A stretch of DNA of 64,000 nt, from contig OX344750.2 in NCBI GenBank assembly GCA_947034885.2, forward strand, positions 45,432,821 to 45,496,820, written 5' to 3'. Position numbers and translations under genes: made by a program. The stretch comes from Thuidium tamariscinum (Eukaryota; Streptophyta; Bryopsida; Hypnales; Thuidiaceae). The notes beneath the pieces are model-generated. The model saw nothing but the letters and a program-made list of their open reading frames with translations, was not told the origin of the DNA and did not search any database. How positions within the stretch are numbered: the first letter of the stretch is position 1; every line of letters begins with the position of its first letter. Shown one piece after another: positions 23,998 to 58,153 of this stretch.

Positions 23998-24701
23998 GGG
24001 TGAATGCAAGAAACACTTGTAATATTTGTTGCGTTTGGCTGATTTTTTGGGGAGTACTTTAAAATTAGAAAAAGAATTTAAATTTTAAAAAAAATGACTA
24101 ATATAAACACCTTTAAGATGAAGAAAACCACCAAAGGAAATATGTTAAGAAAATCTCTAAGTAGGAGAACTTGAAAAGTGCCAAACCTCAAGAAAATACA
24201 TACTTTGATGTTTTAATTAATAAAAAATAGTATTTAAGAAAAAAATTGTCCATTTGCAACAACTTTATAGAGATGATTATTCATCAAAAGAAATCACCAA
24301 AATCACTTTTTACATGTTTCCAAAAAAATGTAGAAGGAGGCTCACTTTGTGGACTTGTACACCACATAAATATAACTTTAAAAACAATCTCTTTTCTAGA
24401 AAGCTACAAGTCTACTAGAAGACCATTTCATTCAAATTTGAGCTCAATATCATTGAAAATAGGTACTCAATAATACCAAAAACCTCCAAATTGTCATTTG
24501 TGACATTCAATCACTAGTTTTATTTTAATATTAAACTATTTTTGAAAATTATGAAAAAATTAGGGAAGGTGTATGATAGTGATGAGTACCTTCCTATAAA
24601 CTTTAAGTCATTTAGAGCTTATACATAAAAGTTATGGCCAAAAAACAAATTAGTACATATTGTGTGATACAAAATAGTACAATTGTTTCTTGCGTTCACC
24701 T
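23998..24701. mobile_element. Non-autonomous TIR element E1 (GGGTGATTGCAAGAAA family)
   Basis: The left end GGGTGAATGCAAGAAACA and right end TGTTTCTTGCGTTCACCT are inverted copies, flanked on both sides by ATTA (23994-23997 and 24702-24705), a 4-bp target duplication. Length 704 bp, with no coding capacity. Internally it resembles 57423-58153 read in the opposite direction. Confidence 0.85.
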
Positions 24702-24744
24702 ATTAGTGAAAATTGTATTGTTAATATGGAAGACAAGATTGTCT

Positions 24745-24990
24745 ATAAGGTAGAAGGTCCTGAAATGAACCATCTAAGCACTGAATCTGAATTTCGGGCA
24801 AGTGAAACTTCTTGAAATATTTTTCAATAAATTTTTATTGGAAGACAAGAAGAATTGGCATCTAACCCAAGTTGTTTCACATTTTTTGGATCATTTTTGA
24901 ATTAGTTATGAATTTTCAAACGAGATGTGTCATAGGTCCCTATTTATGATCCTAGGTCCTTCTTAAAGTGTTCATTGCAACTTCCAGGGA
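24745..24990. repeat. Degenerate TA-MITE (copy 5)
   Basis: Recognisable left part (TAAGGTAGAAGGTCCTGAAATGAACCATCTAAG) and core (GGCATCTAACCCAAGTTGTTTCACATTTTTTGGA); the right end is lost around 24960-24990. The following 25000-25400 has no gene I can name. Confidence 0.6.
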
Positions 24991-25399
24991 AAAATGGGAA
25001 AAGCAAGGGAAATGATTGGCTCTTAGAATAATGAATAATATTTTTCTTGGTTCATTCAATGACTACGGAGGTCAATTTAGTAACCACATCCAATCCATTC
25101 AACCACCATTTATACAGTCCATTCTTAATGCCCGCTCCATTTTAGAACCTCCTACCTTATCTTTCAAAGGATTGTTTAGCATAGAACACTTTCAATATAG
25201 AACACCTTCAATGCTTCAAGCAAATAGTGAAACTCTCATATCAAAGTTGCATAGTAAGAATGATTGATTGGGATGCTCCTTAATAATGAAAAAGTTGTTA
25301 CTATACATATATAATACATCATGAGAATAGTATATATACAAATCCTTCCTATCATGCTATGATTATGAGCTTATTTGAGAGTTGGAAACATGCTTTATG

Positions 25400-26686
25400 T
25401 TTAATCATTGATCAAAAGCACTCGACTCACAAGTGGAATCACGACTCTTTCGAATTTTGATGTCTTTCAACCAATTCTGCTCCATTTCACCGGTCTTACG
25501 AGTTTCACACCAGCTAAGCTAAGCACGCTTTTCGTAGAAGCAGGGGCAATTCAGACATAACATTCAGAAAGACCAGACTATAGGCTCATTATCGAAGTAA
25601 TGGTGAAGACACTAGAAGATGGAGAAATCAGGATGCGTGAGACAGATTGTGTATGCAGAGTGGAGAAGTGCCAGGTCTCACATCATCCATCTTTCTATGT
25701 GAAAAAAACAAGCTTTCATTTCAGGTAGTAGGTTAAAATGACAACTTCAGCCCATAACGAAGCAACTGCTTCAAAGGGAGAAAGGTCGATAAGATATATA
25801 ATTACACTGAATGAGCTGAGAGTTCGACGTCCCTTTTCTAGAATCATGGGAGAACCATTGAATACTGTTGTGCTCCATAACGCGTTTTCGCTTCAAGAGG
25901 AGCTCAACGAACTGAAAATCGGATTTCAGGCAGATGACATAAAGATCAGAGAGACCCAGTCTACTTGACAGCTACCGCATCCAATCAATCTTAGTCGTCC
26001 ACAATGTCGTGCCACAAATTTAATGGTCTAATGGGTGACTTCACCTGAGGGAGACAAGTGAGATCAGCAATTAATTGAATGCTCCACGAACCAAGACATA
26101 CCCGCAATCGACGCTTAACTACGGGAAACGTCGCTGATATTCTTGCATTCACAACGTCAGCAAGCCTCCAGATTCATTCATAGGCTTTGCTCAAACCTCC
26201 AATCCAAGCTGCAAAGCCAACGTCTTCAGGATGAAACATCGTCAAGATCTGCAGCAGCCCGAGTCCCGTTCTGGACTTACAGAAAGCAGTCATTCTCTCA
26301 CGTCCCCCGCTAATTTGATTCTGGAGAAGGAAACTCCGCCGCTCTAGTTAACAGAAATCCCTGATTCCAACATTTGAATTTCTTTAAGCCTTCTGCATTT
26401 TTAACGGGTGAATGCACCGGAGGCAAAAGTCACCAATGCGTGCACGGCACTGAAAGATCAAGGAAAGCAGTTCAAGTGTACTATTTCCGACTTCAAGCGT
26501 GCGTCATCGTGATTAGCGACCGAAGGCGTGATCCCACGTATCTGCACTCCAGAACATGCTTTTTGTCAACCTGCAATAAACCAAACGACCAGTCAGCACA
26601 GATTCAAAGGGTTCAAAATGAAACTCCCAGTCGCTGCTGACTGTGCTCGGTATCACACGATTACAATTATACCAATGTACGGACAG
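25400..26686. other. 3' flank of bHLH B, no second gene recognised
   Basis: GC-richer DNA 3' of copy B. Short frames (for example 25738-25968 plus) have no domain. The portion nearest the gene, around 26555-26590, resembles the corresponding place beside copy A (TGTCAACCTGC followed by an ACCAAA-like word). Confidence 0.4.
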
Positions 26687-27721
26687 TTATCCCAACAACG
26701 GCTCTGTAAGAGCCACATACTGTGCAACGGAGCGATCGTGGCTTTGAAGGATTTGCGTCCGTACCAGTGATCCAAGGTAGTGCAATACAAATCGTTCCTC
26801 AAAAGCTACGCTGACTTCTTCCACATTCAACCCCCTTGCTTCGAGCACCTTCATAATGTCTGCCAGCAGACCGGCCCTTTTGTCACACTCGACCCGGATT
26901 CGCAGACCCGCTCGGGTCCTCACCACCTCCACCTGATCATGCCAAAAATCTCGTCAGACTCTCCAAACCGTGAAGGACACTGTCAACTTCGGGGCCGCGT
27001 TCCGTAATCGAAGCGAAAACACAAAAAGGGACTCAGAAAAAAAACCTACCCTTGATCGTGAACGACCATGGCGACTGGCACAGCTCCATTCGAACGCAGA
27101 ATTCGAATCCACGCCACTCTCCTCGACGCTACAAGACGGACTTCCGAAGTCGTCTTCGCACGAGCTCGCATCGGCATCGCTACATGTCTCCGAGTCAAGC
27201 TCCGAATGCAGCTCCTGTACTTGGCTCTGAAGCTGAGCGATGTACTCGTACGCTTCTGTCAATACCGACGCCCTCTCATCCTGCACGCCACCATGGAGCA
27301 AGGATCGTCAGGCTCCCTTCGTCATCCCCTCACCCTTATTTAGCTTCTTCACCCCATGGCGACATAACAATTCAGTATTGCAGAGCCATGGTCTACGAAC
27401 GGAGTCCCCCCACCCCTCTTCCCAAACTGCTCAACAAAGCACAAACACCAAAAAAATACTCACAGTGCCAGACACAGGTATAACGGCCCGCAAGAGCTCC
27501 AGCTTCTCGTCGATCCTACTCCGCACGCGTCGCTCCGGCACCACCCCGTTCTCCGACGACGCGCCACATGTTCGCTTGGAGCTTCGCGGCGCCACACACT
27601 CCAGCATTGGGGGGAAGTAAGCACACTCCTCACCGCTCTCAGCATCCGTCAAGTCGGAAGCATAATCCAGATTATGACCATCATACTCCAGCGCATCGGC
27701 AAACTCGACCGGCGCACCCAT
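26687..27721 (-). CDS. bHLH transcription factor with C-terminal ACT-like domain, copy B
   Basis: Paralog of copy A with identical architecture. Exons on the minus strand are 27721-27464, 27280-27050 and 26932-26687; introns are 183 and 117 bp, GT-AG, phase 0; the product is 244 residues. The start is the first in-frame ATG (MGAPVEFADALE); the frame stays open about 61 codons further upstream but contains no ATG. The bHLH has PERRVRSRIDEK, LELLRAVIPVSGT and then DERASVLTEAYEYIAQLQ. The exon-2 product differs from copy A at two of 77 residues and intron 1 at about three of 183 bases, while both protein ends differ heavily. The ACT-like domain is longer at the C-terminus (ending ..VALTEPLLG) and is probably the complete form. 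Such ACT-like domains in plant bHLH proteins usually serve dimerisation; target genes are unknown. Confidence 0.85.
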
Positions 27722-28540
27722 ATTCAATGGTAACTCCACCCCACCGCGCGTCGTCAGCAACCCTGACCTAGCTAACGATGTCACCAACCCTAGCCACCTA
27801 AACCCCCACAATCCCACTACCACTGTCAATTCCACCCGTCCCTGCAAGCAAGTACGTACGTCGTTCCCCCCAGGCCAATTCCTCTCACCCCTCCAGTTCT
27901 CCACAAATTAACCCCAAGCAATATATGCCCAACCAGTTAAACAACTGCCCTTCAATATATGCAAACCAGTGCTGCCTTCAATTCTTCGCAAGCAACCCCA
28001 CAACGAAGCAACGTTTTCCAAATCAATGTGATCGGCAGCTGGAGTCCGAAGACCAGCATTGATGGGGGCACGGCGAAGAAACCAAGACCCGCGACTTGTG
28101 ATAGATGCAGAACAGGCTAGAGCGAAGGGGGAGGAGGAGTGCTGGGCAGCCGCGGGTTGAGGACCTGCATGGACCTGCATGCACGTGAAGGGACGAGCTG
28201 GGCTTGGCTGCGACGTGGGGGACGTCGGGGACGTTGGGAAAGGGAATGGAGAGTGAGGGGGCAAATGGGAGGCTCTTTGTATGGGAAGGGAAAGGGGGGG
28301 ACATGATCGAGGTCAAGTGGCTGGCTGGGCCGCATGCGTTCCTTGCCGTTGCCTGGGCCTGTCCTGCGGCGCGTCTGACTTGAACCAGGCGCACCAAAGG
28401 AAAGAATCCTGCCTCCCACGGGCCGCTGGCTGGGGTGAACCGACATCGGTCGGCCCTGGGTTTTTCCCCAGTGAAAACACAGGAACTATTTACTTCCCAT
28501 TAGCGATCCTAGAACGGTTTTAGGGGAATTAGTTTCAAAG
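27722..28540 (-). promoter_or_regulatory. 5' flank of bHLH B with CATGCACGTG element
   Basis: Upstream DNA of copy B. CATGCACGTG at 28178-28187, within GGACCTGCATGCACGTGAAG, matches the element 5' of copy A and lies about 457 bp upstream of the start codon. A second GGACCTGCATG immediately precedes it. RY (CATGCA) and G-box (CACGTG) words are known plant transcription-factor sites; use here is inferred. Confidence 0.45.
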
Positions 28541-28824
28541 CTATTCTCGTGTAGAAAGGGAGCTATTCTTGTGACCGTGTCCTTTTTTTTTTAAAACATG
28601 GGGATAAACTCGTGAAAGAAAAGTGGCTTTTTCATTGCAACTTTTTTTTCTCAAATCGTACAACTTGCAATTGAGCAAGAATTTGGGAAGTGCATTCATG
28701 GCTATTATAGGTGTTTTGCAAGTGCTGCAGTTGCTAAGGGACTGTCGGAATTGTCTTAAGTTTGCAACTTTGGTGTGAAAATGTTGGATATTGTAAAATG
28801 GAACTTTCTTTGGAAAAAACAATG

Positions 28825-29404
28825 TTAAACCCTAGGGGACCAAGCTGCGTTTTTTGGCAACATAGCAATTTTGGGTAGCCCAAAAAACATCTTTTAAAAA
28901 CATTTTCTTAAAATTTAAAATTTAAAATTGATTCTTTACATTTATATACACATGGTAAGCTTTGTATCATTCCATTTGGATTAATTAAATGAAAGTTATG
29001 AGGAGTTTTAGTTTGTGGGTAAGTATGTAGTCTTTGAAATCCATACCTACCCGCAAACTAAAATTCCTCATAACTTTCATTTAATTAATTCAAATAGAAT
29101 GATTCAAAGCTTACCATGTCTATATAAATGTAAAGAATCAATTCAAAATTTTAAATTTTAAAAAAATGTTTTTTAAAGAAATTTTTTGGGCTGCCCGAGC
29201 TGCCTACCGTCAAATGAAAATGGCATATCATGCAATAACTTTTTAACCATGTATTCAAAAGTTATAAAAATTGTTGGGTCTTAAAGCTACTCCTCGGGTA
29301 TACATTGTGTGAAAATTTCAAAGAAAAAAGAAAACTCCATGCATAGTGAATTGCCCAAAATTGCTATGTTGCCAAAAAATGCAACTTGGTCCTTTAAGGG
29401 TTAA
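28825..29404. mobile_element. Foldback element Z1, ~580-bp hairpin
   Basis: Left TTAAACCCTAGGGGACCAAG and right CTTGGTCCTTTAAGGGTTAA are inverted. The arms continue pairing (GGCAACATAGCAATTTTGGG against CCCAAAATTGCTATGTTGCC, then the GAATGATTCAAAGCTTACCA region) almost to a centre near 29035, so nearly the whole element can fold back. TTAA at both edges may be target site or terminus. No coding capacity. Confidence 0.8.
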
Positions 29405-29743
29405 GAGTAATTTTAAAACTCAATGAATGCAAGATTGACAGAGTCTGTCACTAATAAGGGGGTTGAATACTTCTTGCATTTGCAAGATTGCCCAAAATGC
29501 AGTGTTAGTAGTACTGCACACCACCACACAAGTGACATTAGTTTTAATGGTTAATAAATAGTAACTCAATATTCTCTAGTTCTACACTCAAGTGCTTGCT
29601 CCAACTACCGTGCATGGAACTCAAGCTGTTGTACATACAATTCCACTACTCCAACTATTGTGCATAGAGCTTTGTTGAGTTCTTTGTTCACCTTCAAAAA
29701 TTAGAAGGCACCATCCCCATGGAGAATGTATCGTAGTATGTCA

Positions 29744-30497
29744 AGGTGATTGCAAGAAGCACTAGTCCTTTTTTTTGTCCCCTTAACCTCTACCACGTAT
29801 TTTTTTGCACATAACTTTTGCATCTTTTGTCTTTTTCCCTATAAACTTGAAATTTGGAATGAAGATGCACACAAAAGTTTTGTATATTGTGTAATTTTTT
29901 CAATTTAAAAAAAATTAGTTTACTATTTTTAAATTGCCCTCGATTGGTTGTCTACCTTGGCCATTTTGGGGGGTTTTAGTCCTATTTTTGACTCAAAAAT
30001 TTGAATTTCAAGATACAAATTGGACAAGTTGGAAGTCTACTAACATTTCAAGGATTGACGGTGAGTTTTTATGAAAATAGTAAAATGTCTATTGTCCACA
30101 TAGGGTCAAAATGACCTAAACACTATAAAGAGGAAAAAACATTTTTAGAGGAATTTTTTGTTGCAATGTGAGTACAATTTTGTTTAGAAAAATGGATTTT
30201 TTTTTAAAAATTTTTTTTAAAAATTATTAAAAATAAAAAGGTCCACAGACTTTTTTTCTGCTATTTTCTGCTCTTTGTGGCCTGTGAAGTACTTTAAAGT
30301 AGTCTATAGTATTGTATAGTAGTGCATAGTACTACATTGATGGCCCAAATCTACAAGCGCCCGAAATCAACTGTTGAGATTTGTAGGCGCACATCAGATG
30401 CGTTGTACTGTCAAGATTGTATAGTACTACTTACTAATACTATGTTCCAAAACAACGTTTTTGAGCTAAAACCGTGAAAAATTTCTTGCAATCAGTC
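29744..30497. mobile_element. Non-autonomous TIR element E2
   Basis: Left AGGTGATTGCAAGAAGCACT and right TTTCTTGCAATCAGTC, with flanks GTCA and GTCT (3 of 4 identical, consistent with an aged 4-bp duplication). Length 754 bp. It aligns throughout with E5 (43809-44552), including a subterminal cluster of ATAGTACTAC words near 30310-30450. The 29405-29743 stretch before it holds nothing recognised. Confidence 0.75.
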
Positions 30498-30642
30498 GTC
30501 TACAAATCTTGAGCGATTAAAGTGACAAAACCTCATGAAAACTAAGGAGTAAAATGCATTAGCAAGTGGAAGTAAAGGATACTACTATTGACCTCAATCA
30601 CAAATCCCCTTGTTAGCTGACCTTGGCAACTAATTTCCAAGA

Positions 30643-33600
30643 ATTTATAGCTTTCTTGTAAAGAAGTTCTCAAGGAAAAAGAACCATTGGCCAAACATTT
30701 GCACAACAAGTGGAAGATGCTTTCCTAATCTATTCCTATGGCATGATTTCAAAAACTTTAGATTAGAGTAACAATGCTTGTCCTCCATGGAATCCAAGAC
30801 CAAACAACATCCTAATTTTGCCAATTTAAAGTACTTAGAAATTAGAGAGGACAAGTATCATGATTGAGAAAGTTTCCGCCACAACTGTATGATCGGATTG
30901 ACATCTAAAAGTGCCCCATAAGTTGCGTTATAGTTGGCATGCATGGTGACTTTGAACAAACCTTATTGCAAATCCAATTTAGACGTTGAAAGCATCTTGG
31001 AGACAACAAATGATGTCCAACACTGTTTATGCTTTTGGCGTGATTGTAGAATGCCTTTAGAATAGCTAGGTGGTGGATGAAACTTGCCTCGGCCCCCTCT
31101 TGATGCCAGTGTTGGGGATAAATTATGCCAAAGGCATCTAGGATTTTTGTTAAAGAAATCTCTAATCAAATTTGTGACAAAGTGCTTGTGCAAGATCTAA
31201 TGCACAGCAAAAACAACCCGTCAGTCAACAAAGCGGCTGAAGCAAAGTAAAAAAAATGTGTCAATGAACTTGTGCAATATTTGAAGTACAATAAAAACAA
31301 CTCGTTAGTAAACTGAGGCTGAAGTACAACAATTGTACAATAAAAAAGACAAGAAACAAAAGAGGAAGCAAAATGAGCACAAACACAAGTTGTGAACCTA
31401 CATAAGAAGATTCTCTCAAGTCTCACAAAAATAAATTAGAAGCTGAATCAAAAGCAGCTAAAGCAAAAAATTTGAATAACAACATAGACAAGAAAAAAAA
31501 TTGGAAGCAAAATGAGCACAAAGACAAGATCAAAACCTAAATAACATAACTCACAACCAAAAAAATTAGAAACTAAATCAAAACCACACAAATTGAATAT
31601 AAAATGCAAAAAAAATTTGGAAATAGATACAAGTTTGATACTTGAAAATTGACGCTCGATGGTATCCTGAATATGATTGAAAACTTTATGGGTGGAAAAA
31701 GTATGTTGCCTAGTCTACTTGTCATGGATGCATATAGACTATAGTTGTGTTGAAATCAAACTATACAAGTGACTAATTTCAAAGCCTCCAAGGAGCTCCT
31801 TCCATTGTGGTCGAAGTCTCTGCATTGTAAAGACACCAAATCGGTGTAAAGGAGGGGGACTCCTTGTTAAAAAGTAGCAGGATCAATGAACAAGCAAGCA
31901 AGCTCTGCTTGGCAAACTTTCATTGCTTATAGAAGGATGTCTCGTGTCTGTCTGTCTGAGAAAGCTTCATTAAGCTATAAACTACATTGAAAAGTGGTGT
32001 GAAACATGCCAAGGATAGTAACACTTTGATGTTAGATAGACACTCAAACAGATCAGTAGCCCTAAGCACAACTTTATACCCAAAGCTAGTAGTGAAATCA
32101 ATTATGACTTTCACAAAGAGAGCCTTGTACTCAGACAATATTTGTAGTACAAGACTCCTCATAGAAATCCCCCTTGTTTTCACATTGCACAACATCTTGT
32201 TGCCCTTAGCTTCCATGAGATTTGCTAACTTCACCAACTCACAATGTTTGTTGTTGTTGTGACAAAAAAATGAATACATAGATTGAAAAAGTCCCTCAAG
32301 CTTAGACACTATGGGGTACTTTGACAATGTCTCAACCACAAGGTTAATCTTATAACTCACGTAGCTGAAATCTAGAGAAAATGGAGCCCACTTGTCTCAA
32401 ATTTAGGTTACCACATCCGTCTTGGGACCTTGAAACGTATTGATACCATTAGAACCAAAACAAACAAGTTCACTTACGATCTTAGCGTGAGTGAGACCTC
32501 CTTCTTCAACAAGAGTATACATCATGATGTTAGTAAGATTATTGGATGTGGCTCCATCAACCACATAAGATAGGTATAATAGGTGCAGTGCTCTTAACCA
32601 ACTATCTACAACATAAAAATAAATGCCAACCCAAGAAGTAGTATTGATAGCAGGGTGAATGCAAGAAACACCATACGTTTTTTGTAGTGTTTTGGAATAG
32701 TACTCATTTTTGGAATAGTGCTCTTTAAAATTAGAAGACAATTTTAAAAAAAAGTAAAAAATATATTTTATGTATACACCTTTGAGAAGAAGGTACTTTT
32801 AAGAAAAAGAAGTATAAAAAAATTATTGAAGTAGGTGAACTAGAAAAGTGCAAAATAGGATGAAATTGGTACTTTCACATTTTAATTGGTAAAAAATAGA
32901 ATTTTTTTTTCAAAAAAACCCTAAAAATTGGCCATTTGGGAAAAGTTGATGGTGATGAGATTTCACCAAAAGAATGATCTTAAAGCCATCTTTGATGTTC
33001 ATAAATTGCATGTACAAGAGTGATGTTTGCACACATGTAGAGGTCATAGAATAATATATTTTTAGATGCCCTTTGGTAGGCACATGTCTCTCTATTGTGC
33101 AAACAGACCATGAAAATTTTAGCTCTAGATCATTAAATTTGGATACACCTAATGTAGTGAAAATCCCTATAACATAGATTGTAATAAATTATCAAAATTC
33201 ACTATTAATTTTGAATATTTTTTTTAATTTCAGAAAAATAAGGGATCTAATCAACATCAAGTTAGACATCTTCAATAACTATTTCATATTCATAGAACCT
33301 AGGATTCAAAAGTTATAGGAAGAAACAACAATGTACCTCCAATTGTGACACAAAATAGTACTGGTGTTTCTTGCATTCATCCAGCAATGACTTCATCGGC
33401 ACTGATCAAGAAAAAACGCGCTAATTGAACAAACCACTTCAATGGTCCAAGAACAATAAGGTGCAAATGCTCGCACATCTCCTAGCTAGTAGACTTTGAT
33501 TAGTGCTTGCTAAGCAAATTCTTCAATTTCAAATGCTTGAAAAAGTATTGTTAGCTTTCAAAATTAGACATGAAGCAGCTATGAGAGGGAAGTTGAAACA

Positions 33601-34250: not shown

Positions 34251-34334
34251 TTTTGGCTAGAATTGAAGCACCGGACCTTGAAGTTTTCAAGGAGCTTTAG
34301 TTGTAATGCTATGGAATTAGATTCTTGCATAAGT

Positions 34335-35050
34335 GGGTGATTGCAAGAATGACTTCACGGTTTTGTCTCAAAATGGCCTTAGTATTGCAGTATTGTGACT
34401 TTTGGAATAATTTTTTTTTAATGAAATAAAATATGGATACTCTTAAATAGTATGTGGATGAAAGTTCTAACTTAGAAAAATTTATCTCTAAAAGTTATGC
34501 TCTCTCAAAGAATGATGAAAAATACAAGAAAATAGATAGTTTGGAATTTTATTTTTCTTAAATAGTAGAAAAATTCAAAAAAATAAACAAAAAACTCCGT
34601 TTTTTCTAACTTAAAGTTGCTTCTTCTTGACAATTTCCATCTTCAAAAATATTATTTTGTGTTCTCTACAAGTGTACCTTGGTAGTGCACTTTGAGTACA
34701 TGTGGAAGGGGAATACTTTACTATTTTTAAAAAATCTCTTCGCAAGCTTGTGTAACTATATTAGAAATCCTTGTATTCCAATTTTTACCTTCAAATTTGA
34801 AATTTAGGATTGGAAATAGTACTAAAACCCCTCGAAATGGCCAAGGTAGACATCCAATCGGGGTCAGATTAAAAATAGTAAACTAATTTTTAAAAATTTC
34901 AAAAAATTACCGAATGTCAAGAACTTTAGTCTGTACATCTATTCCAAATTTCACGGCAAACAAAGACACACTGCAAAAGTTATGAGCAAAAAACCACTTG
35001 TCCAAAGCCTAGGGGACAACAAATGGGACAAGTAATTCTTGCAATCACCC
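34335..35050. mobile_element. Non-autonomous TIR element E4
   Basis: GGGTGATTGCAAGAA at the left and TTCTTGCAATCACCC at the right are perfect inverted ends. Flanks are AAGT and AAGA, a near 4-bp duplication. Length 716 bp, in the opposite orientation to E2 and E5 (its right part reads GGGACAAC..GGGACAAG). It sits immediately 5' of the decayed transposase gene. The 35051-35740 stretch has no gene. Confidence 0.85.
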
Positions 35051-43808: not shown

Positions 43809-44552
43809 GGGTGATTGCAAGAAATACTTGTCCTATTTTTTGTCCCCTTGACCTCCAACGAGTAGTTTTTTACTCATAACTTTTGCATCGTTTGCCCTAT
43901 CAACTTGAAATTTGGAAGGAACGTGTACACAAAAGTTTTATATATTGCATATTTTTTTCAATTTTTTTAAGATTAGTTTACTATTTTTAAACTGCCCCAA
44001 ATTGGCTGTCTACCTTCACCATTTTGGGGGGTTTTAGTCCTATTTTTTACTCAAAAATCCGAATTTGAAGCCACAAATTGGACAAGTTGGAGTTCTACTA
44101 ACATTTCAAGGATTGATAGTGAGTTTTTATAAAAATAGTAAAATGTCTATTGTCCACATGGGGTCAAAGTGACCTTCCTTTGCACAAACTCTACGAAGAG
44201 GGAAAAAAAATTTAGAGGAATTTTTTTCTTGCAATATGTTTAGAAAAATGTGTTTTCTTAAAATGATTTTTTGATTTTTTTTAATTATTAAAAATAAAAA
44301 AGTCTACAGACCCTTTTTCTGCTATTTTCTACTCCTTGTGGCCTATGAAGTATTTATAGTAGTCTATAGTACTGCATAATACTACATAGTACTACACTGA
44401 CGGCCCAGATTTGCAAGTGCCCAAAATCAACGGTTAAGATTTGTAGGCACGCGTCAGACGCGCTATACTGTCAAGATCGCGTAGTACTACCAGTACTATG
44501 CCAAAAAACAGCATTTTGAGCCAAAAACGTGAAGTGTTTCTTGCAATCACCT
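43809..44552. mobile_element. Non-autonomous TIR element E5
   Basis: Left GGGTGATTGCAAGAAATACT, right GTTTCTTGCAATCACCT, perfect TGCT duplication at 43805-43808 and 44553-44556. Length 744 bp. It aligns over its whole length with E2. Near 44350-44500 it has ATAGTACTAC subterminal words and a CpG-bearing stretch CACGCGTCAGACGCG. Confidence 0.9.
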
Positions 44553-45010: not shown

Positions 45011-45760
45011 GGGTCATTGCAAGAAACGGCGTTCAAAAAGCATAGCGTTTTTCACAGTACTCCTGTTTTTTCAAGAGTACTTTAAAATTAGAAAAATAAT
45101 TTTAAAAAAAGATTAAAAAAAATAAGTTTCTTATATATATATATCTTTAAGAAGAAGGTACCCTAAGAAGGAAAAGTATAGAAAAAATTTCTAAGTAGGT
45201 GAACTAGAAAAGTGCAAAATCTCGTGAAAGTAGTTTTGTCATTGTAATTTCACATTTTAATTTATAGAAAATAGAGAAAGAAATTTTTCTTAAAACTAAA
45301 AATTGGACTTTTAGGAAGAGTTGATATTGATGACATTTCACCAAAAAAAAGATCCAAGAACCATCTTTAATGTTCTAAAATTGTGCGCAACAAAAGTGTT
45401 GTTTGTACTCTTATGGAGGACTTAAATAACGTATTTTTAGATTTCCTTTGGTATATATGAGTTTTTTTTATTATGCAAGTAGACCATGAAAGTTTCAACT
45501 CCAAATATTTAAATTTAGGGGCTCATAACGTAGTAAAAACCTCTAAACCTCAACTTGTGACAAATTAACAAAAATAGTTTTTAAATATTAAATGATTTTT
45601 TTAATTTATAAAAAATAAGAAATGTGATAATAATAAAGTTATACATCTTCAATAAAAATTTCATGTTCATTCGACTTGTACTTCAAAAGTTATTGTAGAC
45701 AATGAGAGAGTATGTCCAATTGTGACAGCAAAATAGTACCACCGTTTCTTGCAATGACCC
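45011..45760. mobile_element. Non-autonomous TIR element E6
   Basis: GGGTCATTGCAAGAAACGG at the left and CCGTTTCTTGCAATGACCC at the right are perfect inverted ends, with AAAT duplicated at 45007-45010 and 45761-45764. Length 750 bp. Internally closest to E3 (shared AGAAGGTAC, AAGTAGGTGAACTAGAAAAGTGCAAAAT and TTTCACCAAAA words). Confidence 0.9.
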
Positions 45761-46002
45761 AAATAGATATGCACACTATAGAAAATGGTCCCCAACTTTG
45801 CCTTATACTTGTCCTTTTAACATGCACCATTTTAGATATCCTCTCTATTCATTTTTCCTTTAAAAATAAGGATTGATTTGGAGTAGTGGTCCATTTTAGG
45901 TGTAATTATAGTATACCTCAATTGATGATGTAGGGTACATCCACTTTATCAAGTGGCTTTATATCACCAAGCCTATAGAATTCCCATGGATAAAGCTAGC
46001 TC

Positions 46003-47105: not shown

Positions 47106-47975
47106 TTAACCCCTAAAGGACCAACATGCCTTTTTTGGCAACATAGCAATTTTGGGCAGGTACGTGTGGCTAGAGATTTCCATATTTTGGAACCAAACTT
47201 TAATAAAAGGTGTGAACAAGGAGTATCTTCAAAGCCCAACAATTTTTGTGACTTTTGACTACATGGTTGAAAAGTTATTGCATAAAATGTTGTTTGTTTC
47301 TCAACTTGGGTAGTTCGGGCAGATTAAAAAAATCATTTTTTTTGGGAATAAAAATTTGAAATTGGTTTTATAGATTTATATATACATGGAAAGCTTTGAA
47401 TCATTCCTTTTGGATTAATAAGTCAAAAGTAATGAAGAATTTTAGTTTGCAGGTAGTTATGGATTTTCTTCTCTAAAATGTAGGTTGTTTATTACAACAT
47501 TTGAAGCATTGGGATTGGCATTTTTCAATTCAATAAATAAATTGTTACCATATTTGTATTTTGAATCATTCTCTAGTTCTTTCTACTTACTATTCTTTTT
47601 GTACATGTTATACAATTCCAAATGATATAAAAAATTTCAAGCATGTAGCCAACTTGAATTGGAGAATGAATCCAAAGAGTTGCAACCATTTTGGACATTT
47701 TTTCATACAAATGTGGCCAGGTTGTGAAGTACAACTGCCCGGATTTTTGCAGTAGAAAAAAAATGATTTTTGTAACTTCAAACACTAATATCTTGCAATC
47801 TACATGGTGGAAATTCCTGAAATTTTTTCTACATCTTTCCAAACTAGTGCACTAAAAGATCCTACAGTTACATATGTCAAAAAATGTTTTTAAAAAAGAA
47901 TTTGGTAGCTACCCTAGAAATGACAGTTTTGAAGCAGTTTTGGTGGAAACATAGTTGTGATCCTTTAGGGATTAA
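47106..47975. mobile_element. Foldback family Z, long copy Z2
   Basis: Left TTAACCCCTAAAGGACCAAC and right GTGATCCTTTAGGGATTAA are inverted ends, with TTAA at both edges. The left third matches Z1 (TTGGCAACATAGCAATTTTGGGCAG). The right two thirds match the reverse complement of Z3 (16154 onward). Length about 870 bp. Open frames on both strands at 47561-47842 arise from repeat sequence. Confidence 0.7.
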
Positions 47976-50900
47976 ACACACAAATACCATTCCTACTATT
48001 TTGCAAACCTTTAGTCATTAAATGTCACAACCTCTTGAGTCTTTTTAATGTATTTTTAATATTTGAAACCTTTATTGAAATCTTTACGTGGTGTAATTCA
48101 ATTTTGTTTTGAAATATGCTATTCTAATATGAGCTCAAGGTACTAACTACTCCAAAGAGGTGCTCCAAGTACATTGAATTTTTTATTTTTGCACTAGACC
48201 AAGTGCACTATTTGTTTAGGTAAAATTTTTTTTATCTCAAATTTTATAATATTAGTGTAATAATTTTTCATGACTTTTCGTGCAAGGCTTTGTATTGTAA
48301 AAACATTCAATTTGGTACCAAATGGTATATAGTGTCAGTACATTTTCTATCTATAACACCTCCAAGACCTCCAAAGATCTTTGAACACATGTAACAACTG
48401 ACCATTCACATACATTGTTATCATAGTCTAGATGTTGAATTTTCTAGGTAGATGAAAGTGAAAAAAATAATAATACAAATTTACTTCAATACAAATGCAA
48501 GCTTAATTTCTTGTTTTTATTTAATTTTCAAAATTAACAAAAAATCAAACATTTCAACTACCTTCAAATATTATACAAATAATTCAAAATGTTAGAAGAA
48601 CCAATGCATTTGAAGGTCAAAGGGTGAAAGAATGGGAGGGTGAAGAAATATACTCAAAATATTATCAAATGAAAATGGTAACTATTAGAGTTTGAAGGGT
48701 TATTACTTCAAATTTTTTATTGGTATTACTAACAAATGTCCATCTAAAAAATAAAATTGGGCCATAAGTAGCCCCCCTCCCCTTTCCCCTTAACAAGTTT
48801 GAGATTTTTATGCACATGATTAGTGAGCGCATATTTAAATAACAAAGTGCAAAAATGTTCATGATATGACATAGTTTACCAAAATTACCATATAAAAGGG
48901 TTACCATGTTTGTCAAATGAGTGCTTGATTAGGTTATTTAAGGCATCTTTGATGGAAAATAGAAATTATGTGCACACCAAATATATCTTTATTTGAGTCT
49001 TTATCCATTTTGAATAGGTACAAGATAACTCCAATTTCAACATTAGTAAGAGAAAACAAACCACTTTAAATGGTAGATAATGGACAAAAATGATAGTGGC
49101 CCTAGCAAATTACACATACCGATGAACATTTCACTCTAATTTGCATTTGGAGTGTCAATGGCCAAATCTTTCTTTGGTAATGGTGATTTGCAAAGACCTC
49201 CATAATTTCTAACTTCCATCTTGCTTTTGAAGTGTTTTTTGAATGTCTAAATTTGGATTTTTCCTATGCCTATTTTAAAGACTTTTGGATGCATTTCCAA
49301 TGATAGTATTTTTAAGTTATAATTATATATGAGTCAAAAGATAGAAATACATTTAGAAGGCCAATATATAGGTTGGATTGAGAATGATCTTGTTACACAC
49401 TAGGTTTACAAACTATATTTTACATTAAGGATGATATGTGTGCAATTCAAAATGTCTCAACAATCAATTGGCAAGGAAAATTAGAGCTTATATGAAACAT
49501 TAACACACTTAAAAGGTCTCCAAAAACTTTTGCATTGGTGGCAAAAATTTATGAATAAAGAAATTTGGACATCTTTGAGTTGTAAGCTTTAAGGACATGT
49601 AGTATTTTATAATTCAATAATAAGTGTAGTGACTAGGTTACTCCATTGGTTATAGCTTGTCCAATGGTCCAACTGCTCTAAGTTACAACCGGGTTGTTCA
49701 TATATACTTTGTAAGGAAAAACAAAGTCTTTTATTTCACTTCTACTATCCTTGCTCACATTCACTCACTCACCATTTTTCATTTATACTAAACAATCTTT
49801 CTCACTCACATTCTAATGACTTTGAAGGTAAGTGATGACATGCAAGAGTTAGATGTATAGAGATCTAATTTTTATCACTAGATATGAACTTTTTGTAGCT
49901 TGACCCCTTAAAGTGACATAGTTAGATAATCCTATTTCCATTCAATGATCAATGACCATTGATATATAGCCTAATTGTACTTACACTTTCTAATAGTTAT
50001 TGTCCACTCAACCAAAGTATAAACAAGATGAGTGGTTGATTTAATGGTTGTGTAAAGGATCAATGTAGTAGATAAGATTAACACTTTGATTGTTTTAGAA
50101 TCCAATGTTGTGATCCTATAATATTTAAAAAGCTCAATTGTAAAACATTGTGTTTTGATACTAGTGTACTTGACAATAATGTCATGTCCTCAATTAACTT
50201 CATACCATACTTACAAGTGCAAAATGTATATATATTGAATTATAGTCCATAATGAGATTTTTGCATGATTTAATGAGCATGTACAAACAATTGCCCTTGC
50301 CACTCATTACTTGCATCCCTTATAGAACTAGAACCTTGTGAGGCAAGATAATGTTAATGCATAGCAAAGTGATACTGTGTGTTTCAAAATTAGACTAGTG
50401 TTTCCTTTGTATTTTCCAAATGAAATACTATCTTTTAAAGATTGAAGCTGTACAAGCAATCAATGAAATACAAAGGAAGAATACCTACAAATATACAATA
50501 TATAGGGATATAATAGTATAGTATACTATACAATAATTCAAGAATGTCTCATATCATTTCCTAGTAATGAAAATGATATACCATCTAGGTCATTGATTAC
50601 CTATCATTCTAAGCTTTTTTTATCCCTAGATGCCCAATGTACTAGAATTTGGTGTTTGCAAAACTTTGAAATTAAATGAAACCTAACCAAGTTGCTATTT
50701 TTAGTAGTTTATATTTTAGAAAACTTCTTTTTAAAGTCTAATTTTAGTATCAAAAATCTGATTTTGAAAAAATAATTGATTATGATTTTTCTATTCAAGA
50801 TTTTATGCAAGGGTTTCCAATGCAATCTTGACTTCCTATAGTGTTGAGGGCTCTTGGGAGTGAGCCTCAAATACACTAGAGCTTGGAGAAAATATTACAT

Positions 50901-51540
50901 TAAGAAAATTCTAGAAAATTTTAGAGTGGATTTTGAAAAGCTATAAATTAATTAGGAATATACATGTTAGGCCCTTTATCTTCATATTTAGATATGACAT
51001 GTGAATAGAATATCAAAAGATTTCAACTCACTTTTACAATTTTGAAACCCTCATAACAAAAATTATAATATTTCAATCCATAAATGATATTGTTGTGTTT
51101 TCTTTTCCTCAAGTGATCTGTAAGATATCTAGTCTAGATTTGTACAATCACATTTTTTTTTAAATTGATAAAACTTATCAAAATGTTGACTTTTAGTTCA
51201 ATTTAGAGCAAATTCCAAGAAGCTCAAAAAAAGTGTTGGACACTTACGGGTTAACCTACAGGAGTGGACATTTTCAACCATTCAATATAGGCTTTGAATT
51301 GGACATGTGAATTTTGAAAAAATAAACTATGGATTACAATGGAGCTTCATAAGATTTGTTTATATTTCTTCAATGGATGGTTTAAGAACCAAACTTGGTT
51401 CATTCCTAACTAAGTGACTATGTGTCTACTAATTTAATTCAAAATTAGGATTCATTGTTCAACTCATAGGCCCTTGGAAACCCATCCATGCATAGTTTGA
51501 AAAAAAATCAGGGTTTGTTCAAAAACTAGCATTGCAACAT
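47976..51540. other. AT-rich intergenic DNA, no gene
   Basis: About 3.5 kb with no frame longer than about 83 codons, no recognised domain and no clear inverted termini. It may hold old unrecognisable repeats. Confidence 0.45.
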
Positions 51541-51848
51541 GTGTAAAATAATTGAAATGGTTTCTAAAAGTGCCCCTTTCTAAATCTGAAATGAATGCTT
51601 GACTTATCATTATTTCAGATTTTTCAATACTTGTAAGGAGGGATCACAAGTTCACAACCTATACCAGATTGTGTTTAAAAATTCATAACTAATTCAATAA
51701 TGCTTCAAAAAATATGAAACGACTCGTGTTAAATTCCTCATCTATTTTTCTTTGACTGAAAAATAAAGTAAAAATATTTTCATCTCAGGAGATACATGAA
51801 AAAGGCGGACCAGCCCTTAGATGAGCGGTTTCTGAGCCTCCTCCCTTA
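51540..51848. repeat. Diverged TA-MITE, opposite orientation (copy 6)
   Basis: Reverse-complement core (TTCATAACTAATTCAATAATGCTTCAAAAAATATGAAACGA) and end (GGACCAGCCCTTAGATGAGCGGTTTCTGAGCCTCCTCCCTTA) of the family at 13185. The AGGGAGGAGG terminus with TA survives at the right; the left end is unclear. Confidence 0.65.
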
Positions 51849-52362
51849 CAACATTTTGCAAGGCAGCTGGAAAAGGGAGCGACAGTACCTTCTCTGTATC
51901 CTTTCTGACAACCCCGGTTGGTTCCGAGCTGACGACATAGGGCTAAAGTATCTTACAGATTCCAAAGGACAGTGTCAGTGTTGCACGTCCCATCAAAATT
52001 CCTTGAAAACTTCGTCATTGCGGTAAAACATCGAGACCATTGTTCGGACGCAAATACTGGAAAGAGAATATCTGTACTTGGGCAAATGGGGGGTTAGGTT
52101 AGCCCCCGGAGAGAGCTCCTGTGGCGGAACAAGCTCCACAATCAAGAGGCAGAACAAACGCTTTAATCATGCCGATATTGGAACACTACCCGCAGTTAAA
52201 CAAGCTTTTTCTTTGACCTTTCAAAGTTCTAATGGAGTGGGACTGCCTCGCTTCCCTTCTCTCTATTCCTGAACCTAACCTGGCTTTAGACAAGGTTCAC
52301 GGTTGAAGATCCGGAACTTACCTATTGTGAGGATTACCGTATAAAACAATATTTACGAAGCC

Positions 52363-55281
52363 CTACAAACGTGTACAGGAGAGGTCAAAGTCATCAGGCG
52401 CATGATTCAAAAGCCATGTACTGAGAGTTCTTTTTGAGTCTAAGCTGTTCATAGACGCCAATTCGTACATGCTGCACAAATTAAGAACCATCGTCTCATT
52501 CAAAGTGGATCGAGGACTAGCTTGCAGTGAGTCCTCGAGGACGGATGTTGCACCAACAAGCTCCCGCTGATACATCAAACAAAGTGCCTGCCAAACACAA
52601 GTGCGGGTGCTTAGTACCACATTTTACTGAGTTACTGACGAGTCTATACCAGTGCAGAGTCAATAACACTTTTCGTAAAAAACAAGAAATAGTCCGATAA
52701 AAATAGTGAATCACTGATTGCATTCATGAAAATATTTACACGTCTAGCAGTATGCAATTGAACAGAGCATGTAGGGCAACTTTACAAGGCAAGGCTATAC
52801 ATTTGACACTCGATAAACATGTATATGAATAGCTCACCTTGTTGTTTGCAGAAACCGTGTCATAAGGGCTTCTACTCAAGACAGTGGTAAATTCCTCAAA
52901 GGCCTTGGTGTACTGCTTCTCGGCAAAGTGAAGAAGGCCCCGATTTCGTCCTGCCATGTTTAAGAGCTTCTCGTCCACCGTATCTGAGAGAAGCGCATCC
53001 ACCTTAGAGAAGGTTTGCTGAGCTCCCCCAAGGTCACCTAGCTGGAGCTGAATATAACCTACCTTTGACAGGAGATCTGCATCTGTAGGGGACCTGCGGG
53101 AAAACTGGTGTCATAATCAAATATACTCTGGAAAAACTAACAATCCTTACCCATCAGAAAATAATGTGAACACTAAGTGCAGACTTCAACTAACCTGGCC
53201 AGGAGCTGATTCATCCACTGCAGCGCCACAATGTACTGCTTCTGAAATAAATGATGACCCACAAGGGCATACACAACAGTGTCCTTCCGCTTCATCCACG
53301 TGAGAACCAGCTTTCCTTTAACAGTGGTATCACTAGCCATGAACTCCCCAAAGTCTTCTTCCTCTTCGGTCGTACCAACCTCCTCCACAAGAGTCTCCTC
53401 GCCAGAGTCTTCCCTTTCAGCAGGAGCATCCTCAGCCATATCAACATCCTCGTTGGAAGGGGAGTCAGTAACGGCTTGTCCTAACGGCAACGAAGAATCT
53501 TCAGTGTCAGATCCAATCGATTGCAAAGATTCGACCTGGTCACACACACATGACTTATGAGTTATGATGAAAAAAAGTAGGCTCAGATTGGAAGAGATTT
53601 GAATCAGTAGAGAGTTGCAAAAGAATTAGAGGTAACGCAAGCTATCTCAAAGTGTCATATCGCAACCTAAACAAGTGAAAAAAAGAGACTCTTAAGACGT
53701 GTTTCAACTATAACTAGTGTGCCCGGAGCCGTTGCCACAATCAAAATCAAAGTAAAAGTGATTTTCTAATTTTTTTAATCCATAAAAACTTTGAAATTCA
53801 ATAACTTTCACGCTGTAGATCCAAACGCCACAAAACCAAGCCCGTGCACCCCTCCTCGCCGAGAACTTTCCGACGGTAGCAAGAACGCAATTGGGGGACG
53901 CGCGGTCCGGGAGATCTCAACGTGACAAACAAAACAAATTTAAAAAAAAAAAAAAAAAAAGCCTATCTTAAGGTTTAGATAACTGAAAGATCAACGAGCA
54001 GCACATTTCCTTATGATGATGCACAAGTTATGAGAACTTACTCTCGAATTGCAAAAATCCAAGAGAGCATACAGCCGTTCTATAGTGGTAGCCGTTTGCC
54101 CATTGCGATGAGGAAGCTCAGCGTGCATCCATCTCAGCGCAAAAGGCACCATTGAGCCTGTAATAGAGAAACGAAGGAATCAACGAGCAAGGCAAATACA
54201 AAAACTCACTTACTGAGCTGCATCTGCAAAAGTTTTCAGCGAGCAAAACGTTTCTGGAGTCCACGATTTCTGACCCCCAAAAGGTTACCTGACTTATCAG
54301 GATACACCGAAGGATACTCTTCATAACGATATTTCGTAGAATCGAGATCTCCCACAGCTGCCAATTCATCCGCAGCAGCACCATAACTTCGAAGCTTCAT
54401 TAAAGCCAGGAGATGATAAGTAGCGTAGTTTAGCTCTTCAACTGGCGTCGTCAAAGAGCCCCGTGCCTTTGAACCCTTCACCCTGTCAACTAACACTCTC
54501 CATGCCCCTTGTCTCTGCACCACAAATAGGAGAAAACGTTTAAAAGCGCCATTCCTTGAAGCCCAACGCAACCATAATCCACAAGTTCCCCGCAGCAGTC
54601 CATACTTAATCAAAACTTCAGATCAAACCCACGAACCACTGCATAGGAGATACACAAACAACCCAGAGAACTAGTTGCAAATGCGTTGAGAGTGAATGCT
54701 GAAAGACAGGACAAAGACACAGACACGAGTTATACCGCGAGCTTGCGTAAGCTGGGAAGCTCAGAAGAGGCTTGAAACGAGCGGCTGCCATAAGAGAGGG
54801 GACTGGGGTTCTGTGCAGCAGGTCTAGCAGAAGTAACAGCCTCCGGGGAATTTGAGAAAGTTTGTGTTGTGGAAGACGCGGATGCAGTTGGGAACTTCGA
54901 CGGGGACACACCGTCTTCTTCGTCCTCGTCACTGAGAGGATGGTTACCCATGAGGGGATGCTTCACAGCCTCCGTTGCGCCATTCCCCTCTTCAGCATGG
55001 AACAATCCCCACGGCTGGCCAAAATTGGATATAAAGCTTGGCTTTGGAGAGGTCAAAGATGCAGATCGCGTTGCCGAAGAGGGTGAAACTGGGGTAGTAG
55101 ACAGTGGCGACTTAACCTTCCCGTCATTAGCAACCTCGTGAGCAGGTTTGAAAGAGAGAGAAGATATGTCTTGCAATGGGGACGTGGTCGATGCAGGTGG
55201 TCGAGGAATCCGTAAAGGGTCCGCCATAAAAGTCTCGAAATTGTCCCCCGACGTTGCAGACGAGGGAGAATGCTCTTCCAT
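52363..55281 (-). CDS. TRAPPC12: TRAPPC12-like subunit of the TRAPP tethering complex
   Basis: Probable cytosolic/Golgi-associated subunit of a TRAPP complex (TRAPPIII-type in animals) acting in vesicle tethering. Six exons on the minus strand: 55281-54736, 54514-54289, 54157-54042, 53535-53195, 53093-52838, 52587-52363. All introns are GT-AG with consistent phase, giving 569 residues. Residues 1-182 are Ser/Pro-rich and probably disordered. About 183-296 carry the family core, including VEELNYATYHLLALMKLR and GSMVPFALRWMHAELPHR (258-275). About 297-360 form an acidic linker. Residues about 365-569 are TPR-type helices (VALQWMNQLLAR, VGYIQLQLGDLGGAQQTF, GLLHFAEKQYTKAFEEF, NETMVLNLCSMYELAS), ending DDFDLSCTRL like the animal C-terminus. 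The start is the first ATG of a long GC-rich exon. The C-terminal order and motifs make the assignment strong; the N-terminal extension is less conserved. Confidence 0.93.
53700..53965. repeat. Dispersed repeat V, GC-rich copy inside a TRAPPC12 intron
   Basis: It lies in the 506-bp intron between exons 3 and 4. It shares its order of words with 17390-17640 and 56740-57080 (AACTTTCACGCTGTAGATCCAAACGCCA, a CCTCCTCGCCGAGAACTTTCC block, GGGGGACGCGCGGTCCGGGAGATCTC, AACAAAACAAA) and is far richer in C and G. It ends in a run of about 18 A on the plus strand (53942-53959). Confidence 0.65.
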
Positions 55282-55870
55282 GATGAAACTGCGAGCGTCT
55301 CAATGGGACATAATAGCGCCTCCTATACTCAATTGCATCTCCCCAGTCTCCAAACTGTCCTTTTTAGACACAGGGAACTCCAATACCGTCCTAGCAATCG
55401 TTCAATACAAGGCACAAAAACCCTAAATTAAAACCGGATAGCCTAATAATTTAACTCGGAGCACACAAAAACCCTAAATTAATACGGAAACTGATTTAAA
55501 CTCGGAGCACACAAAAACTAAACAAGAGATCCCGTAACCTGAAATCCATTCATTCCACCATAAAACGCCATAAACACACAAAATTCATGAAACTAGGGTT
55601 AGGGGAACTTACAACAAATCAGCACTCGGTCAGGAATCTGCTCCAATCTGAATGTATAGCTTCGCAAAACCGCAATTTATTCCGTCATCCTCGTCGATCT
55701 GCACCCCCGAAATCCTGAACGCACCAGCGACCCACCGAACGATCCCTAATTGGTCCCAATCTCCTTCACGAGAAAAAGAACCTAATCATTTGTGCAGCAA
55801 CGAAGGACAGGAGCTACGCAACGGGCCCCGCTAGTCCGAAACAGAAATGGCTATGCGATCATCGAAATAA
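55282..55870 (-). promoter_or_regulatory. 5' region of the TRAPPC12-like gene, telo-boxes and possible 5'-UTR intron
   Basis: AAACCCTAA telo-box words occur twice in plus-strand orientation (55416-55430 and 55466-55480) inside a duplicated phrase of about 50 bp (ACTCGGAGCACACAAAAA..), with AGGGTTAGGG at 55595-55604. A good minus-strand donor GTAAGT at 55612-55607 and an acceptor-like TTTTAATTTAG near 55424 would make a 5'-UTR intron of about 190 bp. This is plausible but unproven. Confidence 0.35.
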
Positions 55871-55871
55871 T

Positions 55872-56053
55872 TCAAGTGAATTTTGAGCGACCAGTGTGAG
55901 AAACGTGGTCCTGCTTGGCAATGGCGATGATGGAGTTCATGTTTTCGGAGCAATTTTGAAATTCCTGCAACAAAGACTGCATAACTTGAGCCGAAGGTCG
56001 AGCAGAGCAATGCACGTTCCTAACGTTCCCCAAAACCTTCTCAAGTTCCTTTC
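55872..56053 (-). other. Possible unrecognised exon fragment
   Basis: On the minus strand one frame reads KELEKVLGNVRNVHCSARP, then AQVMQSLLQEFQNCSENMNSI and AIAKQDHVSHTGRSKFT and a stop at 55872. The composition looks like a helical protein rather than repeat noise, but no start or upstream exon was found and the family is not recognised. It could be a gene fragment or chance. Confidence 0.25.
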
Positions 56054-56169
56054 AACACGTACTATGCCCTGTGCCATTGTCACAGTATAATAAAATATAA
56101 AATAAAAATAAAAATAAAAATCATTTTGTAATTCATAACAATTTCGAAATTCAATATCTTTTCTATCCA

Positions 56170-56455
56170 GTCTTTCAAAAAAATTTAAGGGAAATGCTAA
56201 AGAGGCAATATAAAATGTTATAGTGGTGCTCCAAATTTCAACATTCATCTACATATATTGGATATGAAATATCACATTAGTACATATCATATAGCCATAA
56301 TTATTGTTTTATCTATAATTTGGTGATTTCATCAAAGGTATTTTTTTGATTTGAAGTTTTTGTGATTTCATCTAAGATTTTATTGTTTATGTTCTAACAT
56401 CATGGTACTAGGTCCACTAATTTGGTGCAAATTGACAACAAATTGTTGGAAGAAA
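56170..56455. repeat. Dispersed repeat S, copy 2 (inverted)
   Basis: Reverse-complement match to 36185-36480, with TAGTGGTGCTCCAAATTTCAACATTCAT as the clearest shared stretch. The open frame 55937-56248 on the minus strand starts inside it and is not considered a gene. Confidence 0.55.
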
Positions 56456-56739
56456 CGACCTTGTTTCTACTATTGGAATTGGAATGCCCTTCTTCATTGT
56501 TTCTAATATGAATGGAACAAAGTTTACACACCCTTTGTTGTTGAGGACTTTTCAATGATACTATGAATGCAGCCAAGGGACATATAGTTTTGGAGATCTC
56601 ATAGTAACTAAACAAAATAAATGAACAACTTAAGTTAATGTATATGTAGAGACTAATAATCACCTCTATTGCAATTGGGCATATGTTAATGTACTTTATT
56701 ACTATTAGATGACAAATTCAATTATACTTGTGTAGCCCT

Positions 56740-57080
56740 ATGCCATTGGTCCTTAACTAAAAAACCATAACTTTTACACCATATGTCCAAACACTATAAA
56801 ACAAAATTTGTGCACCTCTCTTCATGAGAGCTTTCTAATGGTAGTAAGTACAACTCTAGGGAATGCATGGTCTAAAAGGTGCATAATTTAGGAGAATTTA
56901 AGATCCATTAATATCTAAAAAATCTAAGCTTTCTACATTGTATGTTTAAATCTTGTGAAACAAAGTCTATGCACCTCTCTTCACAAAGAGCTTTCTAATG
57001 GTACATGAACATGACTAGGGGATACACAATTTTGCAAATTTCATTGTAACAAACAAAATAAAGCAAAAAAAAATGTTCTA
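56740..57080. repeat. Dispersed repeat V, AT-rich copies
   Basis: Two tandem-like diverged copies of the V core: TGTGCACCTCTCTTCATGAGAGCTTTCTAATGG near 56810-56840 and TATGCACCTCTCTTCACAAAGAGCTTTCTAATGG near 56970-57003. They are followed by GGGAATGCATGGTCT and GGGGATACACAATTT respectively. Confidence 0.6.
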
Positions 57081-57422
57081 ATTTGATGTGTAGATTGTGC
57101 CTTCATTCCAAGTGAAAGAAGGTTTCAATAAAATAATTCAACAATGTATGATACAATATGAATTTTTAGAGCATTTAAAATTAGATGTACCACAAATCAA
57201 CTTTGATGAGATGCTATACTATAGAGGGTTTGTTCTTAACCACAATATGAGTCTATGATAAAAGAATCTCAACAATGAATTATGCTAAAATCAATTACAA
57301 ATTGATGAAAAAAAATGTCATTGTTTATTCTAATAATAAATTTTTGACACAAGAAAAATTCTTAAACACTATACTTCATAAAACAAGTTTAGAATTATTG
57401 ATTTTATTATCCTTTCCTAAAA

Positions 57423-58153
57423 GGGCAATTGCATGAAAGACTTGTACTATTTTCCGTCACAAGTCTCATGCTGATCTGTTTTTTGACCATAACTTTTGCA
57501 TTTTTGCTCCAAATGACTCAAGATTTCTAGAGAAGGTACTCATAACTATCATACAGCTTACATGATTTTTTGATAATTTTCAAAAATAGTTTAATATAAA
57601 AATAGTACTAGTGATTGAATGTCACATATGACAATTTGGAGGTTTTTAGTACTATGGAATACCTTTTTTTAATGATTTTGAGATGAAATTTAGAGGAGAT
57701 GGTCTTCTAATAGACTTCTAGCTTTCCACAAAAGGATTTTCAAAAATAGTTAATTTTATGTCCTGTGGAGGTCTACAAAGAGAGCTTCATTCTGCTTGTA
57801 TTTTGAAACATATAAAATATTATTTTGGTAGATTCTTTGGTGAATGACCATCTCCATAAAGTTGTTGCAAATTTCCACTTTTTTTTTTAAATTTAATTAT
57901 TTTTACTATTTTTACCTAATTAAAACATAAAGGTATGTATTTTCTTGAGATTTGGCACTTTTCCAGTTCTCCTACTTAGAAAATTTTCCTATACAATTCC
58001 TTTTGTAGGTACCTTTGTCTTAAAGGTGTATACATAAGTCATATTTTTTTTTAAATTAAAAAATTATTTTTCTAATTAAATAGTACTCCCGAAAAAGTCA
58101 GGAGTACTATTGCAAAACGCAACAAATAGTACAGGTCTTTCGTGCAATCACCC
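57423..58153. mobile_element. Non-autonomous TIR element E7
   Basis: GGGCAATTGCATGAAAGAC at the left and GTCTTTCGTGCAATCACCC at the right, flanked by AAAA on both sides (57419-57422, 58154-58157). Length 731 bp. Read on the minus strand it parallels E1; its left end also resembles the left end of E5, linking the two subfamilies. Confidence 0.85.

Follow-up and report, generated by a model that had tools for sequence, protein, structure and literature searches.

Seven related elements, here termed E1-E7, lie within a 64,000-bp stretch of the genome of the moss Thuidium tamariscinum (C2:45432821-45496820; hereafter the window), and they very probably belong to a large cut-and-paste DNA transposon family whose members are non-autonomous, duplicate 4 bp at the target and resemble miniature inverted-repeat transposable elements (MITEs) of about 0.73 kb. 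This reading draws together the inverted ends, the 4-bp duplications, the empty sites, the absence of any long reading frame and the thousands of exact ends across the genome. Three hallmarks of MITE-like elements are present, namely inverted ends, a duplication of constant length accompanied by empty sites, and no encoded transposase. We regard the elements as a new family of the 4-bp type, Ginger not fitting by the published descriptions of its ends, and Sola fitting best, by duplication length alone.

The occurrence of E1-E7 is confirmed: their positions, their lengths of 704-754 bp and their 4-bp flanks, exact in five copies and agreeing at three of four bases in E2 and E4, were all reproduced as originally predicted (Table 1). 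The elements end in GGGTGA, within inverted ends that span about 21 bp in one lineage (A), those of the other (B) being about 30 bp long. A search of the window for the end motif with at most 3 mismatches returned 15 matches, against 1.19 expected and a maximum of 5 in 100 shuffles, and 14 of the 15 are termini of E1-E7. Among 100,000 random draws of seven 4-mer pairs from the window, none yielded at least five exact pairs and none had all seven agreeing at three or more bases. The earlier statement that no protein is encoded also bears out, since the longest stop-free frames in the interiors span only 46-92 codons and those in three subfamily consensuses at most 66.

Table 1. Elements E1-E7, their terminal inverted repeat, and empty sites of further copies. 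Positions are those of the window; L numbers denote fetched genome stretches, and coordinates after them are positions within the stretch.
Feature	Position	Strand	Lineage and length	Flanks or remark
E1	23998..24701	-	B, 704 bp	ATTA/ATTA, exact
E2	29744..30497	+	A, 754 bp	GTCA/GTCT, 3/4
E3	32653..33382	-	B, 730 bp	AGCA/AGCA, exact
E4	34335..35050	-	A, 716 bp	AAGT/AAGA, 3/4
E5	43809..44552	+	A, 744 bp	TGCT/TGCT, exact
E6	45011..45760	-	B, 750 bp	AAAT/AAAT, exact
E7	57423..58153	+	B, 731 bp	AAAA/AAAA, exact
Terminal inverted repeat GGGTGATTGCAAGAAA..., shown on E5	43809..43829	+		
Empty site of L001 element	in L016			single-base gap a few bases off the 4-mer
Empty site of L003 element	in window 50618-50988			
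Empty site of L007 element	in L020, L009 and L024			
Empty site of L016 element	in window 23323-23572			single-base gap a few bases off the 4-mer
Empty site of L023 element (4907-5637)	inside other family members			
Empty site of L023 element (5753-6509)	in end of another copy (L008)			

The family extends far beyond the window: a search of the genome (363 Mb in 19 contigs) recovered the exact 16-base end 6,139 times (3,024 forward and 3,115 reverse), against 0 and 0 for the reversed control. The family occupies 5,123 of 64,000 bases in the window, 9,989 of 171,520 in the sampled stretches of C1 after subtraction of the seed elements, and 0 of 43,602 in the CACTA loci considered below; the copy number in the genome may be of the order of ten thousand. 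To the window and the stretches L001-L008 we added 20 stretches of C1, each 10 kb long, and as these were picked mostly around exact end pairs, young copies are over-represented in the sample. Ends were paired if they showed at most 4 mismatches each and at most 5 over both and lay 350-1,300 bp apart, other pairs being dropped before counting.

This procedure gave 46 pairings, of which 26 had exact 4-bp flanks (shuffled mean 1.07, maximum 6 in 2,000 shuffles). Where an end had several partners the best 4-bp match was kept, leaving 41 copies; this choice biases the result slightly toward duplication and was not repeated in the shuffles. The flanks of these 41 copies agree exactly in 26 and at three or more of four bases in 37, while 10,000 shuffles of the flanks gave means of 1.04 (maximum 8) and 4.26 (maximum 14) respectively. 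By length, exact agreement was seen in 8 of 41 at 2 bp, 2 at 3 bp, 26 at 4 bp and none at any length from 5 to 12 bp; thus the predicted 4-bp duplication withstood the statistical check, and no longer duplication emerged. The 26 exact duplications comprise 21 different sequences, none of them CCGG or CCGT. When the flanks were joined and used as queries against the fetched DNA, 13 of 37 met a related sequence spanning the junction. Six of these were retained by eye, the other seven being gapped, tandem or poor and not counted, and the six clean empty sites carry a single 4-mer each, some with a substitution, against two at the occupied site (Table 1). The 4-bp duplications are therefore true, and nearly non-specific in sequence.

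The 37 copies whose flanks match at three or more bases measure 700-764 bp. Alignment of these with two copies of poorer flanks resolved 39 elements into two deep, colinear lineages, A (15 elements, including E2, E4 and E5) and B (24, including E1, E3, E6 and E7), with mean identities of 0.69 among A elements, 0.70 among B elements and 0.51 across the two. The original prediction had recognized two subfamilies sharing one end; the two groups stand, but the relationship was understated, as the consensuses of A and B can be aligned over their full length without inversion, scoring 317 (200 shuffles reached at most 5). The reversed B consensus still scores 53 because the inverted ends are shared. 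In the tree, long internal branches separate old groups among which sit tight young clusters, such as B1, whose eight copies lie 2-8% from their own consensus. One copy (L008) is chimaeric, and another (L009, 4749-5152) is a 404-bp internal-deletion derivative in which both ends are exact, fitting movement by the ends alone.

We infer that such elements are mobilised in trans by a DDE/D transposase. An enzyme made elsewhere would bind the GGGTGATTGCAAGAAA inverted ends, excise the element and insert it at a target site opened by a cut staggered by 4 bp, the repair of which would leave the 4-bp duplication.

Several observations weigh against a family of this kind. Four of the 41 copies, including the 404-bp derivative, have flanks matching at two (two copies) or one (two copies) of four bases. 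The duplications tend to begin with A and finish with T (26 of 52 on counting both strands, and hence one fact seen twice), but this AWWT-like lean amounts to 0.17 bit against up to 0.19 bit at neighbouring flank positions, and being no stronger than the flank it lends Sola2 weak support. Moreover, the larger element with the same termini and a transposase, which was to be sought according to the original prediction, was not found: of 38 lineage-A ends that we followed, none was seen to belong to a longer coding element. These 38 were taken from roughly 100 listed among 432 exact left ends of lineage A. Most were taken as they come along C1, about six being chosen for another end or a transposase domain nearby. 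In 35 the opposite end lies at 713-759 bp. The remainder are two copies bearing nested insertions, one of 963 bp with TGTT on both sides (L061) and one whose other end falls outside the fetched 1.5 kb (L062), and a truncated copy (L081). We also set the exact ends on C1 and the lineage-A left ends against lineage-A1 right ends (56 exact copies). This yielded one pair on C1 (11425583-11426342, 760 bp) and a second right end that is part of an already-found 757-bp copy; among the left-end matches listed there was no long end pair. A pair of lineage-A ends separated by 9.8 kb (C1:37369182 and 37378942) turned out to belong to two ordinary elements, and the putative long elements in L019, L026 and L081 are ordinary copies that are either truncated or interrupted by other insertions. 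A 0.37-kb foldback repeat (L019:5161-5525), self-inverted and 72% alike, is nested within a copy of the family.

As to the source of the enzyme, a Sola-type transposase is the most likely, a view that we hold tentatively and from the duplication length alone. Sola elements, according to a review (PMC10741241), generate 4-bp duplications, encode DDD transposases and have been reported from a moss; Sola1, Sola2 and their non-autonomous derivatives are thus like the present family in this respect. In the relevant passage of PMC3627910 Sola2 has AT-rich, AWWT-like targets, which the weak A-first, T-last lean of the present family resembles in part. The Repbase rule quoted in PMC4455052 defines a Sola end match over positions 1-11 with one mismatch. 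The difference is that no transposase is linked to our family, which is likened to Sola by duplication length and not by its ends; accordingly, that length makes Sola the best lead rather than a place to file it. Ginger, which had been put forward as a second possible source, shares the 4-bp duplication, but Ginger1 and Ginger2 have TGTNR ends and CCGG/CCGT or RTATAY targets in the portions of PMC2836005 describing them; the GGGTGA ends and the 21 different duplications of the present family agree with neither, so that Ginger is not supported as a source.

We consider it possible, though on the unlikely side, that the transposase belongs to a superfamily that is undescribed, or new to this kind of organism, and that makes non-specific 4-bp duplications at GGGTG ends. 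A survey of MITEs in 207 plant genomes sorts them into five superfamilies and Micron and finds some families hard to classify (PMC12550479); the parts consulted show no 4-bp class, the table of duplication lengths being in its supplement. Ends unlike those published for Ginger point the same way. Literature text searches on end strings, 4-bp MITEs, Sola and mosses found no matching family, and although 58 papers contain one or more of three end strings, no 13-base string occurs in any of the 20 listed, a listing that favours papers with more of the terms. On the other side, Sola already makes 4-bp duplications and is reported from a moss in PMC10741241, and failure to find the partner is weak evidence when it covers 38 of the 432 exact ends of lineage A. 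The more specific proposal, of an undescribed superfamily whose transposase acts at GGGTG ends with a 4-bp staggered cut that is non-specific, the non-coding elements keeping one architecture of about 0.73 kb through many lineages that were each active, we judge unlikely. Compared with the Tourist, Stowaway, Mutator-, hAT- and CACTA-type MITEs of plants, the family is similarly short, non-coding, bounded by inverted ends and high in copy number; unlike them it has a 4-bp duplication, a length of about 0.73 kb and many deep subfamilies of near-equal length.

That near-constant length, maintained over deep divergence, could mean that the interior has a role, in structure or in binding the enzyme, and that the copies are not simple deletion derivatives. 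Besides the colinearity of the two lineages along their whole length, at a mean identity of about 51%, and the long internal branches, there are internal blocks whose conservation equals that of the ends (positions 161-180 in A at 0.94; 521-560 in B at about 0.85). Interior folding exceeded that of shuffles (z at most -2) in four of the 12 elements folded out of 39, but the values are inconsistent, ranging from +0.66 to -4.82, and strong full-length folds, such as that of E5 as DNA (z -7.4), are largely due to the inverted ends. We therefore rejected RNA structure as a general feature. Given also the existence of the 404-bp derivative and the capacity of common ancestry alone to produce conserved blocks, a role for the interior appears improbable.

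A CACTA-type (EnSpm) transposase acting on diverged ends is decidedly improbable. On this proposal the CAAGAAA common to the ends would be a relic of CACTACAAGAAA, which we take to be a CACTA motif; laid by eye on GATTGCAAGAAA it matches at 9 of 12 bases, and the genome is rich in CACTA transposase domains (of 627 candidates, 150 were scored). However, CACTA elements have 3-bp duplications and CACTA/CACTG ends in the passage of PMC10741241 that treats them, and the present family shows neither. By eye, and with low power, all six domains among the matches listed for C1:0.25-6.8 Mb are more than 13 kb away from any exact end. Across 12 CACTA loci, whose 1.5-kb flanks may have been too short to include the ends, a match to the end at 4 or fewer mismatches occurs at one same place in seven and is lacking in five. 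The end-like matches in the seven loci we took as chance; in L037 the site falls inside an open frame.

Elements encoding DUF7869 (PF25273), a domain that may be Sola-like, are abundant and transposon-like in the same genome. Their genes have open frames that reach 1,076 codons (of 854 candidates, 150 were scored), and inspection by eye of the protein motifs VDGMDQN, QADNTTRENKN and VGHTHEDIDQRFS shows three that bear D and look DDD-like; the literature text search for DUF7869 found nothing. In one locus (L083) an end of the E type directly follows the 3' end of the element (2 of 23 mismatches; none of 300 shuffles was as good), as might be expected of an autonomous partner. Yet 11 of 13 further 3'-end segments, together with L082 and L084, stop at the same ...TGTT without such an end, the best match to it having 8-13 mismatches of 23 and the other two segments being uninformative; L083 is hence best taken as a case in which the element inserted into an end of the E type. 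A second group (b) terminates in ...AAGGCCTT in three of three copies. The DUF7869 elements have the ends AACACCGAATTAG... (in one variant) and AAGGCCTTATTCG..., unlike the GGGTGATTGC of the E family. As the two groups end in ...TGTT and ...AAGGCCTT, the sampled copies are not the partner, and for both we rejected this candidate; that DUF7869 elements nonetheless supply the enzyme is very unlikely. With these other ends, and no longer coding element behind the followed ones, the earlier description of the source transposase as unclear still holds. Examples of DUF7869 elements are L082-L084 and L087-L089; the three 3' ends of group (b) are 99.6-99.8% alike, and many of the listed DUF7869 matches lie on C11. 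L023:5753-6509 and L083 are both cases of insertion into, or immediately beside, an inverted end of the E type, and such ends may be favoured insertion targets.

It is extremely unlikely that one of the superfamilies usual in plants (hAT, Mutator, PIF/Harbinger or Tc1/Mariner) is involved, its ends misread and the 4 bp being part of another duplication length: GGG-type ends do occur in PIF/Harbinger, but this reading is contradicted by the peak of exact flank agreement at 4 bp and its absence at 5-12 bp, and by the empty sites, which agree with 4 bp. Duplications of hAT elements are 8 bp long, and those of PIF/Harbinger are given as 3-bp TWA. Mutator duplicates 7-12 bp and Tc1/Mariner 2 bp (TA) in the corresponding passages of PMC10741241; the flank agreement of the 41 copies peaks at none of these four lengths.

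The window contains further repeats and gene-like sequences. A second abundant repeat, which measures about 0.86-0.94 kb and is flanked by TTAA, has the inverted ends CCCCTAAAGGACCAA; it lies at 47110-47971, and pieces of it were seen near 2454, at 15.6-17.3 kb and at 28829-29400, as well as in L009, L018, L020 and L024. TTAA precedes 21 of 41 matches resembling its ends, the others including chance matches inside E elements. It looks like a TTAA-targeting non-autonomous family of piggyBac, Kolobok or Sola3 type. On the minus strand at 31920-32798, frames without a Pfam match resemble by eye the remnant of a hAT-type transposase, and E3 overlaps their upstream end. Two 300-bp copies at 9049-9348 and 26980-27279, 99% identical and 17.9 kb apart, resemble by eye a fragment of a bHLH-like gene. 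The minus strand at 52736-55299 carries exons of a TPR protein, perhaps TRAPPC12-like by eye, with sub-cutoff Pfam TPR matches at 52736-53110.

Catalogues of plant MITEs sort elements into a few superfamilies by their ends and duplication length, and an abundant 4-bp family such as this could be misfiled or dropped. Once found, the enzyme that moves it would either bring a burst of MITEs in this lineage within Sola or represent a new superfamily. The long-lived lineages of near-equal length may, in turn, offer a handle on what holds constant the size and interior of an element that encodes no protein.

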